Origin: Alphaproteobacteria bacterium | Lineage (GTDB): Bacteria; Pseudomonadota; Alphaproteobacteria; Micavibrionales; Micavibrionaceae | Direction: 5' to 3' | Length of the DNA stretch: 56,475 bases | Assembly: GCA_020442475.1 (NCBI GenBank) | Contig: JAGRKA010000009.1 | Span: 1-56,475 of the forward strand | In this document: positions 31,936-48,475 of the stretch, one piece after another | Position numbering within the stretch: position 1 is the stretch's first letter | Layout: each line of letters begins with the position of its first letter | Notes under the pieces: generated by a model | Database searches by the model: none | What the model saw: the letters and a program-made list of their open reading frames with translations, nothing else | Told to the model about the DNA's origin: nothing | Position numbers and translations under genes: made by a program

Positions 31936-32019
31936 CGTCATTGCGAGGAGGCGTAGCCGACGAAGCAATCCAGCATCGTAACTGGATTGCCGCGCATCCT
32001 TCAGATGCTCGCAAGGACA
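31936..32019. repeat. Palindromic repeat, copy 1 (about 84 bp)
   Basis: Two 38-base arms (31936-31973 and 31982-32019) are inverted imperfect copies around an 8-base loop. Both arms share TTGCGAG near the outside and GCAATCCAG near the loop. This is the 'CATTGCGAGGAG…GAAGCAATCCAG' type of dispersed palindrome seen in many bacterial genomes. The outer 16 bases (CGTCATTGCGAGGAGG) recur exactly, inverted, at 45654-45669. Confidence 0.8.
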
Positions 32020-40467: not shown

Positions 40468-41214
40468 CTAACGGGCGATCAAGACCTTATAGAACACATA
40501 CTCCGGCCCGGCGGTTCTTTGGAAACAGGCCGAGCTTTTGCCGACCAGCGCACTGCCCCCGGCCTCGTCGCCGATCGTTGCGCTATAGCCGAATGCGCCG
40601 ATATAGCGGGTTTGACCCATATCGGTATCGGTCGGCGGCGCAGCGCCGGATGCCGTCACATCCAGCAGATCATTAATCTCCTGACAAACAGACAGGCTCA
40701 ACTCGTCCACAACCAGAATCAAATCCGCGCAAGCAGCGGCAGCGCATGTTGTCCCGACCTGCTCAATTTCATTGTCGCCGTAAATATGCCACAGATTATC
40801 CGGAGAGGCGCTGCTATCCATCGCTTCGGCGGGTGCGCTGGTCCAGTTGACCCCGCCGCCGGACGGGTGAAAGATTTTATGCAGATCGTCGCTGCATCCT
40901 GCATGGTTATAGTTTGCACCACCCCAGCCGCTATGATCAAAACACAGCTCGCTTGGTTTGACGCCGCGCAGTCGTAGCTGTGCAACCGCCGTACTCAGTG
41001 CATTGCTGAAATCGATCAACTCGCTGGCTGAAAGACGAGCCCGCTCAGCGTTCAAATTATCCGTACTGCTCCGCCCGCCGCGTGTCACCGCATAGGATAG
41101 CGCCGCCAAAAGCGCAACAGCGATCAGGATATAGAATAAGACATTGCCGGACTCAGAGACGCGTTTCTTCTGCTGACGCCTACCGGACCGTGAAGGGATA
41201 AAACCGGTTATCAT
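40468..41214 (-). CDS. Membrane-anchored pilin-like hypothetical protein
   Basis: A 248-residue protein with a basic N-terminus (SRSGRRQQKKRVSES) followed by one membrane helix (GNVLFYILIAVALLAALSYA) and a large outer domain with several Cys (ELCFDHSGWGG, HAGCSDDLHK, TTCAAAACADLIL, SVCQEINDLL, SSACFQRTAG). The layout resembles type IV pilin-like pseudopilins, though the G|xxxxE prepilin-peptidase site is not exact. ATG at 41214; a TTG at 41220 overlapping the stop of the preceding gene (TTGA) is an alternative. It is downstream of, and coupled to, the 142-residue gene. I recall similar proteins in Micavibrio-like alphaproteobacteria; function unknown. Confidence 0.7.
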   Translation of the reverse strand: MITGFIPSRSGRRQQKKRVSESGNVLFYILIAVALLAALSYAVTRGGRSSTDNLNAERARLSASELIDFSNALSTAVAQLRLRGVKPSELCFDHSGWGGANYNHAGCSDDLHKIFHPSGGGVNWTSAPAEAMDSSASPDNLWHIYGDNEIEQVGTTCAAAACADLILVVDELSLSVCQEINDLLDVTASGAAPPTDTDMGQTRYIGAFGYSATIGDEAGGSALVGKSSACFQRTAGPEYVFYKVLIAR

Positions 41215-41216
41215 GT

Positions 41217-41636
41217 TCAAGATGATATATCAGCCAGAAAGGCTTTGAAATCCTCTTCGTTTGATTTCGGGATATGGACGGGCATTTTGCCAAGGCCGCG
41301 ATCGGCCATAACCAGAAAAACGGCCCGTCCGCTGCCGATTTCTACGTTATCCATGAGGCCGATCCCTAAAACAGGCTTTGGAAGCGCGCGGCCTTGGCGA
41401 ATCTTATCTTCCACGGCCTGCCTTAAAACGCGCTCGTTTTCGGGGAGCTCCTGAAGAGTTTTAATCCGCCCGTCACGCCATATCCATTCGAAGCTGAACA
41501 GCGATTCGCGCCAGCTTTCAAGGATATCCGGTACCCGAATAATAATCTCCATATAACGGTGCGGATTGGCCAGCGCGGCCTCATGATCCTCAAACACGAT
41601 CTGCGTGTGATTTTCGATATGCGGCCCCGAATTCAT
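41217..41636 (-). CDS. Hypothetical cytoplasmic protein
   Basis: A 139-residue acidic protein of unknown family. ATG at 41636 with AGGGTG eight bases upstream; an in-frame GTG at 41645 adds three residues. There is no signal peptide. A motif-poor alpha/beta pattern is seen (YMEIIIRVPDILESWRESLF; PKPVLGIGLMDNVEIGSGRA; AVFLVMADRGLGKMPVHIPK). Its stop overlaps or abuts the start of the pilin-like gene, so the two are co-expressed. It is divergent from the zinc-ribbon gene at 41727. Confidence 0.65.
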   Translation of the reverse strand: MNSGPHIENHTQIVFEDHEAALANPHRYMEIIIRVPDILESWRESLFSFEWIWRDGRIKTLQELPENERVLRQAVEDKIRQGRALPKPVLGIGLMDNVEIGSGRAVFLVMADRGLGKMPVHIPKSNEEDFKAFLADISS

Positions 41637-41726
41637 ACTGTGCACACCCTATTTGTTTTGAATCCTTTTCCCTCTTCCTTTATAAACGAAAGAGGCATAA
41701 GAAACCGTAAATGGATTATGGAACAT

Positions 41727-41956: not shown

Positions 41957-44900
41957 TTATTTCGTGCGGATGAAATCAACGTAAATCCGGTCCGGCAACC
42001 CGTTCTCAGCCGGGATATCGGCATTGTAGAAAACTTTCACGGATGTGCGTGCGGTAAGCCGCAGCCGTGAACCGGTGCCGTCCGCTGAAGGCAGGACTTC
42101 GAAGCCGCTGAAAAGCGGGTGATTTTCAAAATTATAATCGCGTGGTGCATTCCAGACTGTACTTGGCAGATCGATGTTGATAATGTGCCCTCCATCTTCA
42201 CTGCTTAAGGTGTAACCGGCCGGGCCGGAGAGATCCATGACAAGGCGAACCTTGTATGGATGCTCCCCGAACCGTACGGCTCCGACGACGGGTTGGACTC
42301 CGTCATCGGAAGAGAGTGGGTCAGACTGCTTTGTGACATCGGCATCTGGAGCGTGGTTGGTATGGGCTACTCTACCACGATCTCCGTCATCTGAGTTCTC
42401 AGATGCCGACACTTCCTCAGTCTGCCCGAGGAGTTGAAGATCCGTGCCATAGGCAAACAGATCTTCGGAAGTCACCCTAACGGTTGCGGGTGGTACAAAA
42501 ACTTGATGGGAAGGATGCGCACGGACCGTATAGGTTCCGGGCTTCACAAACTCGAAAACGTAATAGCCGTCCGAGAGCGTTGTCGCTTCGGCGACCGGCT
42601 GGCCGTTTTCGTTTAAAAGCTGGATGATCACGCCGGGCACGGCACGGCCATCCGGGAAACGAATCACGCCGTCAATGCTGCCAGTCTGGATCAGCGCATA
42701 GTTGACGAGCGGTTTTGTGCGCGGCCTCAGGATCGTGCGGTAGCCGTCCTTAAGGCCTGCCAGAAACGGGTTGGGCAAGGAGTCCTGATCGACTTTGATC
42801 TCGGCAAGACCGGGTGGCCCCGCACCGAGAATTTCGATATAGCCCTCCGCATCGGATCTGTCGCTCCGGGCGCGGTTGATGAAGACTCGCCCGCCCTCAA
42901 CCGGCTTATCTTCAGTGTCGAAAACGCCGTTCATATTAAGATCTTCGAACAAGCGAATTTTCAGGGCCGTATTGAAGCCGGTATATTCGCTTGTGAAGAT
43001 ATAATTATCGTCTTCACCGTCGGGACCGAAGGTCGTGCTGGCGCGCACCAGCATATCGAAACCGTCCTGACGGCTCCAGCCCGTATCAATCCCGCCGGTA
43101 AACGTCCCGAAATCGTAGGCCGCGCCGAGCGTAACATTTGTTTGTGAGGAATCTTCAATACCTTGACGCGCATCCAGAGTCGCGCTGAACTTATCATGAT
43201 CGGTATAGCGTAAATTCAGACGGGAGAAATCCAGCCCGTTTTTCGGATAAACATCGTAATCGAGCGTCGTGCGCATGTGCAGCCGGTCGGACAGAGGCGT
43301 GCTGACGCTGAACTGCCCGGTCGTGGATTCGTGCTTATTATTACGGTGAGCGACGATAAGGCTGTTATTAAAATTGAACTGGCCAATCCCTAAAGAATTC
43401 TGAAGTGTGGTATTCGTATTGCTGTCGCCATCCTCCCGTTTCGTATGCCGTGTCCGGAAATTGATTCCGGTCTGGCCGAAAGACAGGTTAAAGGATTTAG
43501 CGGCACGGAACTCGCCTTCAAACGTCTTGGCGTTATCGCCGAACCCGGCTTCGCGGCTTTCGAAATCCCGGAAAACGGAAGCCCGGACATTCGTATTCAC
43601 ACCGGCGAAGCTGCGTGTGAAGCGTGTATCGAGCACTTCCCCACCGCCTTGCTGCTTATAGGCCTCGACTTGTCCCAAACCACCGAGCGCGTTAAACTCA
43701 GCCCCAACGGTCGCGTAGGTTTCAGACGAATCGTCAACCGGTGTCCGGTTCAGTGTCGCAAAACCCGTCAGCCAGTGATTGATCCCGCGGTTAACTCGTA
43801 AATAGCCGGATAGGCCTTCATTCCGGCCGCCCTTCGGCCCCCGATCATCTACATCGAATAAAGGCTGACGGAAATCGATCAGCCCGGCTTCAAAATTCGT
43901 TTCACCGGGACGCAGCCTGTTAGTCTTGATCTGGAAGTCCCGTGTTTCCTCGATTACTTCACCCTGCGGCCCGTACAGAACAATCCGCATCTGGTTGCGG
44001 CCATACTGCAAGGGAACGGACTCAAAGCGGTACTCACCACGCTCGTCGATAAAACCGAAATCCAGAAGCTCGTTACCGCGATAAATCTCGACTTCCCAAC
44101 CGGGCTGACCGGTTCCCTGAATCGTCACCTCGTCAAAAGACTGACTCCCGGTCGTTGTTGAGGCCGAAGACAGATACAGGCCGCGCCCGAAAAGCGTCTT
44201 GTCGATCAGAGGGGAGGGTTTTGCAGATACATCCCCGGCCTGTGCAAGCTTAAGACCGAAAGGCAGTGCACCGTCTCCGAAGTTCCGGCGGGTCAGGCGC
44301 AGTCGCAAATCCTGTAATTCCGGCTTATTTCCGGTATCATAATACATATTCGCCGTATAATCGGCGCTGGTTCCGAAAAGATCCCCGAAACCGGAAACCG
44401 TCGTAGAGCTGGTCAGACCGTTCGCCCCGTCCATTGCCGTTTGCTCGGACAGGTTGAACATATGGGGCGCGAACAGGCGGTATGTATTGGGAATAAACTC
44501 AAGATCCAGCGCACCCGCTTCATCTCCGTCTTCCAGAGAGGATTGGCGCTGGCGCCTTTCTTTTTCAAGTTCGTAGGGCAGTTTTTTGCGGGTATTGATG
44601 TCCAGCGTCAGATCGGAGAAATCAAGCTCAACATCAAGCGGGAGAATTTGGTTAAGTATATCGGTCCGTACATAGAAGTCACCGAGTCCCTGACCGATAT
44701 CTCTGACGATAACACTGCCCTCCGGCAAATCGGTCCGCTGGCCCAAAACTGTGAAAAAGCCGTTTTGGACATCAAGGCTGTACGTGTTTTCAGGATCATA
44801 GAACGTACCGTGAACCGTCCGGGCCTGTAGATTTCCTTCGCTTGGGAATTTAACAATCCGCGTCAACTCCAGCAGCGGAATATAATTATCCATCCCTTTT

Positions 44901-45292
44901 TGCAAGCCGACGACAACCGGCGCGAGGATGTCGCTCTTGCGGCGGACCCTGATAATCAAATCATATGTTTCACCATCATCCGGAAATGCAAAAACGCCGT
45001 CCACATCCTGTGCGGCCGGTTCGAGTGCATTCAAGGGTTCGGCTTCTCCGCTTTCAGCGGAAACAGCCGTTTCGGACGCAGGAAAGGGTTCGGCGATTTC
45101 TGTGGCAGAAACGCCTTGAGCAATACGCAACTCTTCGGATACGACACGATGCGTATCCTGATTTGCCGCCTGTACCGTCACCTCTTCGGCGGCCAAAGCC
45201 GGAAGCGCATAACATGACGCCGCGAAAAGCACACAAGCCATCGCAACGCACATCGTGCGTCCCAGAATATCCCAACAATGATATTTGCCCAT
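41957..45292 (-). CDS. Usher-like outer-membrane protein with C-terminal AMIN-like domain
   Basis: An 1111-residue exported protein. Signal peptide at residues 14-35 (CVAMACVLFAASCYALPALA; the start may be ATG 45292 or 45253). Residues about 105-260 form a periplasmic N-domain (YDLIIRVRRKSDILAPVVVG). From about 270 the sequence has alternating barrel strands; residues about 385-455 are an inserted plug-like beta-sandwich (TIQGTGQPGWEVEIYRGNEL), then the barrel continues to about 780. Then come an SdrD/B-like repeat with LFEDLNMNGVFDTED, a carboxypeptidase-regulatory-like domain (SIDGVIRFPDGRAVPGVIIQ), a disordered linker, and an AMIN-like domain (about 1000-1111; YKVRLVMDLSGPAGYTL). It is downstream of chaperone and subunit genes. 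Function as a non-canonical usher is inferred from architecture and context. Confidence 0.78.
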   Translation of the reverse strand: MGKYHCWDILGRTMCVAMACVLFAASCYALPALAAEEVTVQAANQDTHRVVSEELRIAQGVSATEIAEPFPASETAVSAESGEAEPLNALEPAAQDVDGVFAFPDDGETYDLIIRVRRKSDILAPVVVGLQKGMDNYIPLLELTRIVKFPSEGNLQARTVHGTFYDPENTYSLDVQNGFFTVLGQRTDLPEGSVIVRDIGQGLGDFYVRTDILNQILPLDVELDFSDLTLDINTRKKLPYELEKERRQRQSSLEDGDEAGALDLEFIPNTYRLFAPHMFNLSEQTAMDGANGLTSSTTVSGFGDLFGTSADYTANMYYDTGNKPELQDLRLRLTRRNFGDGALPFGLKLAQAGDVSAKPSPLIDKTLFGRGLYLSSASTTTGSQSFDEVTIQGTGQPGWEVEIYRGNELLDFGFIDERGEYRFESVPLQYGRNQMRIVLYGPQGEVIEETRDFQIKTNRLRPGETNFEAGLIDFRQPLFDVDDRGPKGGRNEGLSGYLRVNRGINHWLTGFATLNRTPVDDSSETYATVGAEFNALGGLGQVEAYKQQGGGEVLDTRFTRSFAGVNTNVRASVFRDFESREAGFGDNAKTFEGEFRAAKSFNLSFGQTGINFRTRHTKREDGDSNTNTTLQNSLGIGQFNFNNSLIVAHRNNKHESTTGQFSVSTPLSDRLHMRTTLDYDVYPKNGLDFSRLNLRYTDHDKFSATLDARQGIEDSSQTNVTLGAAYDFGTFTGGIDTGWSRQDGFDMLVRASTTFGPDGEDDNYIFTSEYTGFNTALKIRLFEDLNMNGVFDTEDKPVEGGRVFINRARSDRSDAEGYIEILGAGPPGLAEIKVDQDSLPNPFLAGLKDGYRTILRPRTKPLVNYALIQTGSIDGVIRFPDGRAVPGVIIQLLNENGQPVAEATTLSDGYYVFEFVKPGTYTVRAHPSHQVFVPPATVRVTSEDLFAYGTDLQLLGQTEEVSASENSDDGDRGRVAHTNHAPDADVTKQSDPLSSDDGVQPVVGAVRFGEHPYKVRLVMDLSGPAGYTLSSEDGGHIINIDLPSTVWNAPRDYNFENHPLFSGFEVLPSADGTGSRLRLTARTSVKVFYNADIPAENGLPDRIYVDFIRTK

Positions 45293-45531
45293 GAACCAGA
45301 GCAGAGAAAGTAGTAATAGAATAGCCCACCCGAATCATAACATGTCCGGATTTGCGGCAATCATTTCTTGTCCTGGACCCCCATTTTATCCACAGATTTA
45401 TCAAATCTTTACGCACAAGGATGTAAGCAAGCCGCCCAAGGGGGGGGTATGGGCATTTATAGCTATAAGTTCATATACTTAAGACCTCTCCCTTATCACG
45501 GAAGAGGCCTCATCATTTTAAGATGGTTAAG
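45293..45531. other. Non-coding part of the chaperone–usher gap
   Basis: No gene is visible. A near-perfect 8-bp hairpin, CCTCTCCC (45485-45492) with GGAAGAGG (45500-45507), one mismatch, and a G-run (45440-45447) beside GCCGCCC are the only structures noted. On the minus strand, TATGAT with TTGCCG about 16 bases upstream (within 45332-45359) could be a promoter for the usher gene, but the match is modest. Confidence 0.35.
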
Positions 45532-45728
45532 CTGTAATTTTTGATTGCGTTGGTTTATAAAAAATCTTCATCGTGAACGACCAGCGGGAGCGCGGCGATC
45601 CAGCTATAAGACTTTACGATTTAAAGATGGATTGCCGCATCGGCGCTAACACACCTCCTCGCAATGACGAGGGAATCTGTAATCGCCAGAAATCAAAAAA
45701 CTGTAAACAACGCGATCAAAAATTACAG
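45532..45728. mobile_element. MITE-like element, 197 bp, 24-bp terminal inverted repeats
   Basis: The left end (45532-45555) and right end (45705-45728) are inverted copies, 22 of 24 positions identical, both starting CTGTAATTTTTGAT at the outside. Inside lies a second palindrome containing CCAGCGGGAGCGCGGC (45581-45596) and, inverted, CGTCATTGCGAGGAGG (45654-45669), each shared exactly with other gaps of the window. There is no transposase. It separates the chaperone gene from the usher gene. Confidence 0.6.
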
Positions 45729-45741
45729 TTAAGCCCTAAAT

Positions 45742-46575
45742 TTAACGGCTGACAGGAGTTTCCGCAATTGTCCGATCTCTGTACTCAAAATCGTCAATGC
45801 CAATCAGCTTATAAGTCAAAGATGTACAGCCGGACGCCGAGAAATCTTCGGGGATCGCGAGCTCCCGGTCGATTGAACGCCCTTCGGTAAAGATACGAAC
45901 TGTCGGCAACGTCCAGCTTTTCGGTGTACCACCGGCCTGTCCGCATTCCAGCTCTGATTTTGCATACACGCTGCGCGTGCTGGCGTTAGCGATCTTCACG
46001 TTGAGCATATCACGTCCGTTCTTTTTGCCTAAAACCGCACTTGTTACACTCATATCAAGCGCCGTTTGCCCATGACGCATAAAAACAGGAATCGAGACAT
46101 TCGCGCGGATTTCAAAAACGCCCTTAAGACCGGGCTGTGCCGCGTCGTCCGCGCCCTCATCTCCTGCCGCCGGTTCCGCCTCGATCAGAAAATGAGAATG
46201 ATATTCTCCGTCCGGCAAATCAGCGGGACGCTGTACGAGAATACGGACCTTTTGGTAAGATTTTGGCTTAAGCACCACCTGCCGTGGCGAAAAACGGAGC
46301 ATGTCCTGCGCAGGCTTGTAGCCGGGGACCGTTTCTCCTTCCGCCAGAAGCTCAATACTCCCCCCCGGTTTTTGTGCTCGGTTTTCCCAGCTAAAGCGGT
46401 AGACCATCGTTTTGTCTGTTCCGTTATGAATGGTGATCTGTGCGGCACGGCGGGCATCATCGATCATCACGCGCTTGGGCGAAACAAACGTCGCTAGCGC
46501 CGGAGCTGCCAGACCGCAAACCAGAAGCGCGCCAACAGCGAAAATAAGACCGAATCTATATGGCTGCCTACCCAT
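45742..46575 (-). CDS. PapD-like periplasmic fimbrial chaperone
   Basis: A 277-residue periplasmic chaperone. Signal peptide residues 1-29 (FGLIFAVGALLVCGLAAPAL, cleavage near ALAT). It has two Ig-like domains: ATFVSPKRVMIDDARRAAQI opens domain 1 with TIHNGTDKTMVYRFSWENRA, then MLRFSPRQVVLKPKSYQKVR with VRILVQRPADLPDGEYHSHF, the family's G1-type and loop region. Domain 2 begins near residue 145 (FEIRANVSIPVFMRHGQTAL). Such chaperones hold subunits by donor-strand complementation. ATG at 46575 is 41 bases after the DUF4402 stop, so both are co-transcribed. The usher gene follows after a 449-base gap. Confidence 0.88.
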   Translation of the reverse strand: MGRQPYRFGLIFAVGALLVCGLAAPALATFVSPKRVMIDDARRAAQITIHNGTDKTMVYRFSWENRAQKPGGSIELLAEGETVPGYKPAQDMLRFSPRQVVLKPKSYQKVRILVQRPADLPDGEYHSHFLIEAEPAAGDEGADDAAQPGLKGVFEIRANVSIPVFMRHGQTALDMSVTSAVLGKKNGRDMLNVKIANASTRSVYAKSELECGQAGGTPKSWTLPTVRIFTEGRSIDRELAIPEDFSASGCTSLTYKLIGIDDFEYRDRTIAETPVSR

Positions 46576-46616
46576 GATGATATATCTCCTCTATTTTTTC
46601 TTCCGCCCAATGTCGT

Positions 46617-47126
46617 CTAATTGGCTGATATCGTAACATTCCCGGTATAGGTCCCGAGCGATAGTCCCTTATTGAAATGAAAGGTTCCACCAATATCCAG
46701 CGTTACGGTATTGGAAACTTCCGTAGGCGTAAAGGTGAATTGTGTTTTAGGCGTTGCAGCGCCGCTATGCTGCATGACAAAGCCGTCGACTTTGGCCGTG
46801 CTTGTGCCTGAAACGATATTGATAGAGGTATTCGTAAAGGTAACAACAACACTTGCGGTTGGTGCCAGCGGACTCGAAAACACCCGGCAACGTCCTGCCT
46901 GAGGCGGTGCCGAAGACACCAGACAGCCGCTCAGCATCGTCGAGCTGTCCGGGTTAATGACCAGCGAGCCTGTACCGCAAGCAGCATGCGAGCCGACATA
47001 AAGTTTTTGCGAGCAGGTAACCTTGACCTGCGCCCGTGCCGTCATGCACGAAACGGCGCTCAGAGCCAATGTCGAGATCGTTACCAGTACGGTTTTCTGT
47101 TTGCTCTTTTTTCTGCGGGCGCTCAT
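46617..47126 (-). CDS. DUF4402-type fibre subunit
   Basis: A 169-residue exported protein of the DUF4402 type. Signal peptide with basic start (MSARRKKSKQKTVLVTISTL) and cleavage near ARAQ (residue 33). The mature part is beta-rich with Thr/Ser-rich strands (VVVTFTNTSINIVSGTSTAK), TPKTQFTFTPTEVSNTVTLD and the closing GGTFHFNKGLSLGTYTGNVTI, the most conserved end of this domain. Four Cys probably form disulfides. DUF4402 proteins are commonly next to PapD-like chaperones and are regarded as pilin-like. It is the first gene of the minus-strand trio with chaperone and usher, and divergent from the SET-domain gene. Confidence 0.88.
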   Translation of the reverse strand: MSARRKKSKQKTVLVTISTLALSAVSCMTARAQVKVTCSQKLYVGSHAACGTGSLVINPDSSTMLSGCLVSSAPPQAGRCRVFSSPLAPTASVVVTFTNTSINIVSGTSTAKVDGFVMQHSGAATPKTQFTFTPTEVSNTVTLDIGGTFHFNKGLSLGTYTGNVTISAN

Positions 47127-47251
47127 GGCAGTGCACGGTCCTGTGTAGAATCTCCTCTATCAATAAAATAGAAGCTTGTTGATTGCCACCACCAATTTAT
47201 AATGCGAATTTCACAAACCATAAAAACAGCATAAGGAGCAACGCGCAAACC

Positions 47252-48475
47252 ATGGCGATCATAGAAGCGGATAATCCCGAAATCGGCGCCGAACTGCGCA
47301 GGCTTGAAGAACTCGTCGAACAAGGCGGCGGCGGAATGCATTCCGACGTCGTTCTTTATGCGGATTGTCACGGGCTTGGAGTCAGAACGCGAGAGCCTAT
47401 GCCCAGAGGCAAAGAAATTATTCGCCTGTCCCGTAAAATTCTTCTCCCTGAGGATTGTTACAATATCCGGGTTGAACAAGGCGCATTCTCGGTGAATTTT
47501 GAAAATAATGCGGGGTTTTCGTCCCTCCAGAAAGAGCTTACGGACTGCATGATCCGGCTCTATAATTTTACGGACAAGGTCGGATTTCAGAAAAAAGTGT
47601 CTTTTTTGCTGTCTATTGCACCCTATCCGGACTTGACGGATCATTTGTTCCGTGGCCGGCATATCAGTGATTTAATGCTCAAATGGCGACCACGGCTTGA
47701 AGATCCCTCCTTGTCCGAGGACACGCTGAACGATTTTATCACAGAGACGTTTCTCAAAACCCGGCATCTGGGGTATGAAGATAGAATTCGTGCATCTAAC
47801 GTCAGTATCCTGATGCCGGTGGTTGATTTTATGAACCATCATTGGGAAGGAGCGGCCTTTAATGTCGGGCTGGGCGTTCGTCCCGGCGATCTGGCAGTCA
47901 TGAGCAGCCAGCCTGTGCCGGAGAGTACCGACTGCTATGCATTTTATGGGATCATGGACGCATTTGATACGCTTGTGCGTTATGATTTTATCGATGAGAG
48001 CGCGCCGGTCGTCCGCTCTATCCCTCTTGAACTGGAAGCGCCGGGATTGGGTACGATCAAAATCGACAGCCAGACCGGCGCGATCAACCGCAAAAAGCTG
48101 GAAGGCAAGCTCGCCGATATGAGCCGCTTCATCCCCGTTATGACAGTTGATCGCGAAAAACGGATCTTGTCGGCCTCTCATGTCATGATCCCGGTTAAAG
48201 GATCGCGTAGAGCTCTCCGCCGCGCCCTGTACATCCTTTTGACTAATCTGGCCGGGAAGGAAATCGAATCCGCGATCTGGAAAAGCTGGGTTAGGGAAGC
48301 TGAAGCCACGATCCTTGAGAAAAACAAGCTCTATTACGAGGAGCTGGCAAAGCTGAGCGAACGTTCTATCCGTGAAAAGGGTCCAGATGAAGGCCTGAAA
48401 CGAATTGCCGCGTTGGCCGCCCTCCAGCTTGAAAAACTCGAACGCTACGCTGCACCGCAAGAGGCTGCGGCATGA
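47252..48475 (+). CDS. SET-domain protein (SETD6/Rubisco-LSMT-like methyltransferase)
   Basis: A 407-residue protein with the SET fold as split in plant LSMT and SETD6. The N-part has HGLGVRTREPMPRGKEIIRL (family pattern G.G…A…I..GE.ll..P), an iSET insert, then the cofactor motif VVDFMNHHWEGAAFNV (Asp192, Asn195, His196) and YAFYGIMDAFDTLVRYDFID (Tyr232, Gly233), which match the 'D..NH' and 'YG..…LL..YGF' signatures. The C-terminal half (about 270-407) is helical, like the LSMT substrate-binding domain. ATG at 47252; AAGGAG lies 13 bases upstream, an unusually long gap. It overlaps the dehydrogenase gene by four bases. The substrate is unknown. Confidence 0.75.
   Translation: MAIIEADNPEIGAELRRLEELVEQGGGGMHSDVVLYADCHGLGVRTREPMPRGKEIIRLSRKILLPEDCYNIRVEQGAFSVNFENNAGFSSLQKELTDCMIRLYNFTDKVGFQKKVSFLLSIAPYPDLTDHLFRGRHISDLMLKWRPRLEDPSLSEDTLNDFITETFLKTRHLGYEDRIRASNVSILMPVVDFMNHHWEGAAFNVGLGVRPGDLAVMSSQPVPESTDCYAFYGIMDAFDTLVRYDFIDESAPVVRSIPLELEAPGLGTIKIDSQTGAINRKKLEGKLADMSRFIPVMTVDREKRILSASHVMIPVKGSRRALRRALYILLTNLAGKEIESAIWKSWVREAEATILEKNKLYYEELAKLSERSIREKGPDEGLKRIAALAALQLEKLERYAAPQEAAA

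Follow-up and report, generated by a model that had tools for sequence, protein, structure and literature searches.

Organization of the locus

We analyzed a stretch of 56,475 nucleotides (contig JAGRKA010000009.1 of assembly GCA_020442475.1; hereafter, the window) from a 2.1-Mb alphaproteobacterial genome; its closest relatives among named genomes are Alphaproteobacteria of the Micavibrio type. Three genes on the minus strand encode, in this order, a DUF4402 subunit, a PapD-like chaperone and a protein of 1111 residues. An initial annotation had described the last of these as a usher-like barrel protein ending in an AMIN-like domain. The order and positions of the genes were confirmed, and structure prediction combined with profile comparison identified the 1111-residue product as a divergent outer-membrane usher. 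The features of the locus are as follows, with the evidence for each in brackets.

41957-45292, minus strand: divergent usher of the outer membrane, 1111 residues, ending in an AMIN domain (open reading frame, AlphaFold2, Foldseek/VIA, hhalign)
44597-44968, minus strand: N-terminal periplasmic domain of the usher, residues 109-232, in the position of the chaperone-binding N-terminal domain (predicted local distance difference test, pLDDT, mostly >89)
43025-44461, minus strand: 24-strand β-barrel, residues 278-756 (AlphaFold2 strand list; match to FimD 3ohn)
43928-44131, minus strand: six-strand plug between barrel strands 6 and 7, residues 388-455 (AlphaFold2, hhalign, Big_6 hint in Pfam)
42728-42970, minus strand: first C-terminal β-sandwich, in the position of C-terminal domain 1 (CTD1), residues 775-855 (AlphaFold2, VIA-align)
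42434-42709, minus strand: second C-terminal β-sandwich, in the position of CTD2, residues 862-953 (Pfam CarboxypepD_reg/SdrD_B, E = 4e-14; AlphaFold2, VIA-align)
42302-42424, minus strand: flexible linker, residues 957-997 (pLDDT <50)
41963-42295, minus strand: AMIN domain, residues 1000-1110 (VIA-align to AmiC; hhalign to amidase AMIN domains)
45742-46575, minus strand: PapD-like periplasmic chaperone, 277 residues (AlphaFold2, Foldseek)
46617-47126, minus strand: DUF4402 pilin-like subunit with a short N-terminus, predicted to be the tip or first subunit (Pfam, E = 5e-9)

Fold and relationships of the usher

The AlphaFold2 model of the usher, based on 65 homologues, had a pLDDT of 84 and a predicted template modeling score of 0.63, with low values only at the N-terminal leader and in the linkers. 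From its N-terminus, the modeled chain passes through the N-domain, six barrel strands, the plug, eighteen further barrel strands up to residue 756, two β-sandwiches, a linker and the last domain; the strand counts were taken from the secondary structure of the predicted model. The two features on which the initial annotation had staked its reading, a plugged 24-strand barrel and an AMIN fold at residues 1000-1111, are thus both present.

The 18 best matches in a Foldseek search were all to FimD or PapC (E = 2e-28 to 2e-14), and VIA-align superimposed the model on FimD with Z-scores of up to 20.1. The FimD translocation domain (3ohn) alone matched the barrel with Z = 19.5 and a root-mean-square deviation (rmsd) of 5.0 over 376 residues. 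In most FimD rows of the VIA-align comparison, residues 267-954 of the model were aligned to residues 132-833 of FimD, and the two sandwich domains are therefore the predicted counterparts of CTD1 and CTD2. Here the initial annotation needs correction: it had placed SdrD/B-like and carboxypeptidase-regulatory-like domains after the barrel instead of the usual usher C-domains, whereas these domains are the C-domains by structural alignment, which rules out an exotic replacement. According to the model, the AMIN domain is added behind CTD2 on a flexible linker rather than standing in place of the C-domains. The C-domains of ushers face the periplasm.

Profile comparison with hhalign supported the relationship at the level of sequence families, matching the protein to canonical alphaproteobacterial ushers with a probability of 99.5 (E = 1e-22) and with the plugs aligned. 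Together, the predicted fold and this match identify the 41957-45292 product as a true, very divergent usher by fold and descent. Like FimD and PapC, it has a 24-strand barrel interrupted by a plug after strand 6, two sandwiches at the C-terminal side and an adjoining gene for a PapD-like chaperone; unlike them, it continues beyond CTD2 with a linker and an AMIN domain, shares only ≈10-12% identity with them and has no match to the Usher family (PF00577), which was not matched anywhere else in its genome either. Searches of PDB sequences, with the protein or with a profile, yielded no usher but only SdrD/NOMO-like sandwich domains, so that structure prediction was needed; searches of PHROGs and NCBIfam gave nothing useful, and Pfam alone would miss both the usher and the AMIN assignments. 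EcpC of E. coli K-12, used as a yardstick for the alternative ushers, was matched weakly by hhalign (probability 28), and descent from the EcpC class is neither shown nor excluded by these sequences.

Although the N-domain (residues 109-232) was modeled confidently, no separate fold match was obtained for it. Several homologues showed weak matches to Cu_amine_oxidN1 in this domain (up to E = 2e-6), which are unexpected for the N-terminus of an usher.

The AMIN tail

The tail of the usher superimposed on the AMIN domain of E. coli AmiC (4bin) with Z = 15.3 and an rmsd of 2.1 over 109 residues. We mapped 40 neighborhoods of the order together with 79 loci from named genomes, and removal of copies left 98 distinct ushers; the genomes compared had mostly been assembled from metagenomes. 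Tails of 13 ushers of the AMIN group were then matched by hhalign to amidase AMIN domains of related genomes (probability 99.5, E = 1.5e-22) and to the AMIN domains of separate proteins encoded in the loci (probability 99.8, E = 4e-30). The same tails gave no match to SPOR or CarboxypepD_reg in profile comparison. The terminal domain is thus an AMIN domain by both fold and profile, as had been proposed. AmiC-type amidases share this AMIN fold and profile family, but the window usher has no amidase domain. A linker precedes the AMIN domain in all 31 AMIN-tailed ushers found, with a length of 39-168 residues (median 56).

Distribution of AMIN and SPOR tails among related ushers

The query protein had a match in 51 of 58 related genomes, and in 42 of the 47 of good quality, some of these matches being to the AMIN domain only. 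The neighborhood of DUF4402, chaperone and AMIN-tailed usher genes, for which a search across genomes had been suggested, recurs in related Micavibrio-like loci. On a quick tree of the barrel part, the AMIN tails (31 of the 98 ushers) all fell in one Micavibrio-like clade. SPOR-like tails were found in 20, a second Micavibrio-like clade among their carriers, and SPOR tails in seven: five from Desulfobacterota, one from a gammaproteobacterium and one from a member of the Rhodospirillales. The remaining 40 ushers, including those of Sphingomonads, had neither. Tail labels changed 11 times on the barrel tree, compared to 47.8 times when the labels were shuffled. The pattern exceeds chance, with matches in 42 of the 47 good-quality genomes and the tail in 31 distinct ushers. 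The 31 fused AMIN tails also formed one group on a tree of AMIN domains (support 87), so that a single gain followed by later losses would be the simplest history within the group. We considered the possibility that the tail was a chance or gene-fusion artefact, which its recurrence in 31 distinct ushers and the single group on the AMIN tree rule out.

With a limit of E ≤ 0.05, Pfam searches of 82 tails returned AMIN in 26 and SPOR in eight. Septal peptidoglycan has two known marker modules, AMIN and SPOR, while OmpA, LysM and PG_binding are the usual general wall anchors; none of the latter three, nor any other wall-binding domain, was found by Pfam among the 82 tails. The cut-off of the SPOR family (PF05036) was exceeded by the tails of L116, L118, L119, L131 and L141. 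The tails of the second Micavibrio-like clade had no PF05036 match and are therefore called SPOR-like only, though profile comparison fits SPOR: SPOR-like tails matched true SPOR domains with probabilities of 72-94 (E = 3e-5 to 1e-7), negative controls reached at most 2.3, and the profile of the SPOR-like tails in turn recognizes true SPOR proteins. SPOR tails take the place of AMIN in related ushers. In contrast to FtsN, RlpA and other SPOR proteins, these ushers have no enzyme or divisome part attached, the carrier being the usher itself. The recurrent pairing of AMIN or SPOR with this usher family is, like the usher, chaperone and AMIN folds, a result of the computation.

The Desulfobacterota ushers L118, L116, L117, L124 and L131 are 1270-1380 residues long and have up to three C-terminal SPOR domains in tandem, and a class-wide sample contained more Alphaproteobacteria in which the SPOR or SPOR-like unit is present in two or three copies. 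At two loci (L058:4396-7629 and L046:4695-7667) the usher is split into two frames while the chaperone and pilin genes look intact, which may reflect a sequencing error or a pseudogene.

Separate AMIN and SPOR proteins near the ushers

A separate AMIN protein was encoded near the usher in 13 of 17 loci of the second clade, in 8 of the 31 AMIN-tailed loci and in 6 of 9 short-tailed relatives of the AMIN clade. These companion genes usually lay within ≈2.5 kb of the usher gene (≈7 kb in L038 and L090). Genomes of 2 Mb had one to three Pfam AMIN genes each; we estimate that random placement would put one within a few kilobases of the usher in no more than a few per cent of genomes, and the nearness of the companions is therefore far above chance. 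In L051 and L057, the companion gene directly follows the chaperone gene on the strand shared by the chaperone and both DUF4402 genes, with the usher gene divergent. In Thalassomonas, Psychromonas and Marinomonas, genes for SPOR proteins lie next to the usher gene.

Twenty-one companions inspected by eye began with a lipobox-like sequence, contained a coiled-coil-like and a proline-rich stretch, and ended in an AMIN domain. The companion thereby resembles an outer-membrane lipoprotein built like other wall tethers. This resemblance, and the long flexible linker of 39-168 residues before the fused tail, would suit a general mechanical anchor that braces the pore against fiber pull-out, with no septal or polar preference. 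We regard such an anchor as rather unlikely, considering that only the septal-wall modules AMIN and SPOR were found and that none of the 82 tails had OmpA, LysM or PG_binding. The restriction of the usher tails to AMIN and SPOR, to the exclusion of general wall anchors, favors placement over mere anchoring, without proving it.

Some loci (L031, L032, L033, L071, L073 and L075-L077) hold both a fused AMIN tail and a separate AMIN lipoprotein, so that AMIN-AMIN pairing is possible. The tail might then bind a protein partner, such as an amidase system or the AMIN lipoprotein, and act in the assembly or quality control of the usher instead of contacting the wall. This is improbable, since a companion is missing from the loci of most AMIN-tailed ushers, and since SPOR, which has an unrelated fold and a glycan ligand, takes the same position in other lineages. 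In the window genome, the companion AMIN gene lies on another contig (L201:7178-8245). That genome also encodes a further short AMIN protein of 223 residues with a lipobox-like start (L202:8449-9120), away from any usher, which outscores the usher companion against the amidase AMIN profile.

Chaperone and DUF4402 subunits

The AlphaFold2 model of the chaperone (55 homologues) had a pLDDT of 93, and its top Foldseek matches were to the chaperones FimC, CsuC, CfaA and Caf1M (E ≈ 1e-10 to 3e-9), with PapD among the best structures. No match to the PapD family was found in Pfam. By its modeled fold the 45742-46575 product is a PapD-like chaperone, in line with its first description, and the chaperone gene was present in most of the mapped loci. 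The likeness of the chaperone to CsuC and the small Ig-like subunits are shared with the archaic systems of the Csu type; the window system differs from these in having DUF4402 rather than spore-coat-U subunits and a predicted wall-binding tail, and it was not placed in the Csu clade. The subunits also set it apart from the FimD and PapC systems, which use fimbrillins.

The DUF4402 subunit next to the chaperone and usher, already recognized in the initial annotation, was matched in Pfam with E = 5e-9. Most loci with full flanks encode two DUF4402 proteins. The one adjoining the chaperone often begins almost at the first strand, whereas the N-terminus of the other is longer, with hydrophobic residues at alternating positions. 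The distance from the signal-peptide cut, placed with a crude predictor, to an FG motif had a median of 17 residues in the short kind and 29 in the long kind, although the two groups overlap. Judging from this difference in length, the short kind may be a tip subunit that lacks a donor strand, and the long kind a polymerizing subunit that has one. The DUF4402 protein of the window belongs to the short kind, and the gene for the long kind is unlinked (G000:C46:9307-9753), with a match below the Pfam cut-off. With no obvious donor strand in the window subunit and the second DUF4402 gene unlinked, the barrel might export something other than a donor-strand fiber, such as single DUF4402 adhesins. 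We consider this quite unlikely, as most full-flank loci carry both kinds of DUF4402 protein, one with a long N-terminal extension, together with a PapD-like chaperone, as fiber systems do.

Proposed mechanism

On the sequence comparisons and models, the window probably encodes a chaperone-usher fiber system with an usher of a divergent, unnamed family, in which a wall-tethered AMIN tail positions the usher at the septum or pole. The PapD-like chaperone would hand DUF4402 subunits to the usher, which would thread them through its plugged 24-strand pore. The periplasmic C-terminus of the usher, by way of the flexible linker and AMIN domain, most likely binds peptidoglycan, and the tail would hold the pore to the wall during export. 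Since AMIN prefers septal and polar peptidoglycan, the usher might be loaded at the division site and left at the new poles, where the fibers would emerge, in a manner comparable to PilQ and type IV pili.

Peptidoglycan binding by AMIN is known for AmiC and PilQ (PMC10653833). The AMIN domains of PilQ bind septal and polar peptidoglycan (PMC10653833, PMC5285504) and are required for PilQ to reach the septum and poles (PMC10653833). SPOR domains bind denuded, peptide-stripped glycans, which are enriched at the septum (PMC6895207). PilQ of type IVa pili is likewise an outer-membrane pore for fiber export that carries AMIN; PilQ, however, is a secretin that forms oligomers and carries its AMIN domains at the N-terminus, whereas the window usher is a predicted monomeric barrel with one C-terminal AMIN domain. 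The likeness is one of working principle, that is, of placement, and not of descent.

The initial annotation had suggested tethering of the fiber exporter to the cell wall or to division sites. We infer such tethering from the comparison of loci, which argues for it strongly through the recurrent AMIN and SPOR tails, the companions and the lack of any other wall-binding type. Septal or polar placement and the assembly of a fiber are likewise inferred.

Several observations weigh against this interpretation. The AMIN domain of the window usher scores below the Pfam cut-off for PF11741 (13.7-17.3 bits compared to 20.5), although its fold and profile matches are clear and some homologous companion proteins exceed the cut-off. 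Many ushers of the family, in Sphingomonads and some Rhodospirillales, have neither tail nor companion, and wall binding is therefore not needed for the basic machine. Binding to the wall could also serve anchoring without placement, and some AMIN-bearing PilQ proteins belong to non-polar systems (PMC10653833).

Neighboring sequences

The three genes had been described as one minus-strand run. Their shared strand and positions hold, but a single transcript is not assured, because 449 bp containing a dispersed repeat part the usher gene from the chaperone gene. The repeat (45580-45680, seed 45655-45669) consists of CGTCATTGCGAGGAG followed by a GCGGCAATCCA-like continuation, and also occurs at 31936-31950; the genome holds 31 copies of CGTCATTGCGAGGAG at ≤1 mismatch, compared to none of the reversed control. 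A scan for promoters and terminators gave an outcome at chance level.

A gene for a SET-domain-like protein (47183-48475; Pfam 14 bits, below the cut-off) diverges from the DUF4402 gene, and genes of ≈400 codons at the same place in the AMIN-type loci L031, L032, L033, L037, L038 and L043 resemble its counterpart. Downstream of the usher gene, on the minus strand (40468-41645), lie two genes for proteins of 250 and 142 residues without a Pfam family; the start of the 250-residue product resembles a type IV prepilin.

Implications

In the open-access literature, we found no paper that joins chaperone-usher systems with AMIN or mentions DUF4402, and, by title and abstract, nothing relevant on ushers in connection with SPOR, with Sphingomonas or with septal peptidoglycan. 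The paper on the M. aeruginosavorus genome does not mention an usher. Surveys based on Pfam would miss this usher branch, because the usual usher signature is absent. We tentatively suggest a widespread branch of chaperone-usher systems that is addressed to the division site by AMIN or SPOR, gained more than once, with fibers arising from new poles and a placement signal convergent with that of type IV pili.

To our knowledge, the pores of chaperone-usher systems are regarded as outer-membrane proteins that do not touch the wall, and little is known of their placement on the cell. For one usher branch, the recurrent AMIN or SPOR tail offers a direct, testable answer to the question of pore placement, and two unrelated fiber machines may share one cell-wall address. 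Micavibrio relatives feed attached to prey cells, and a polar adhesive fiber would be a natural candidate for their attachment organ.

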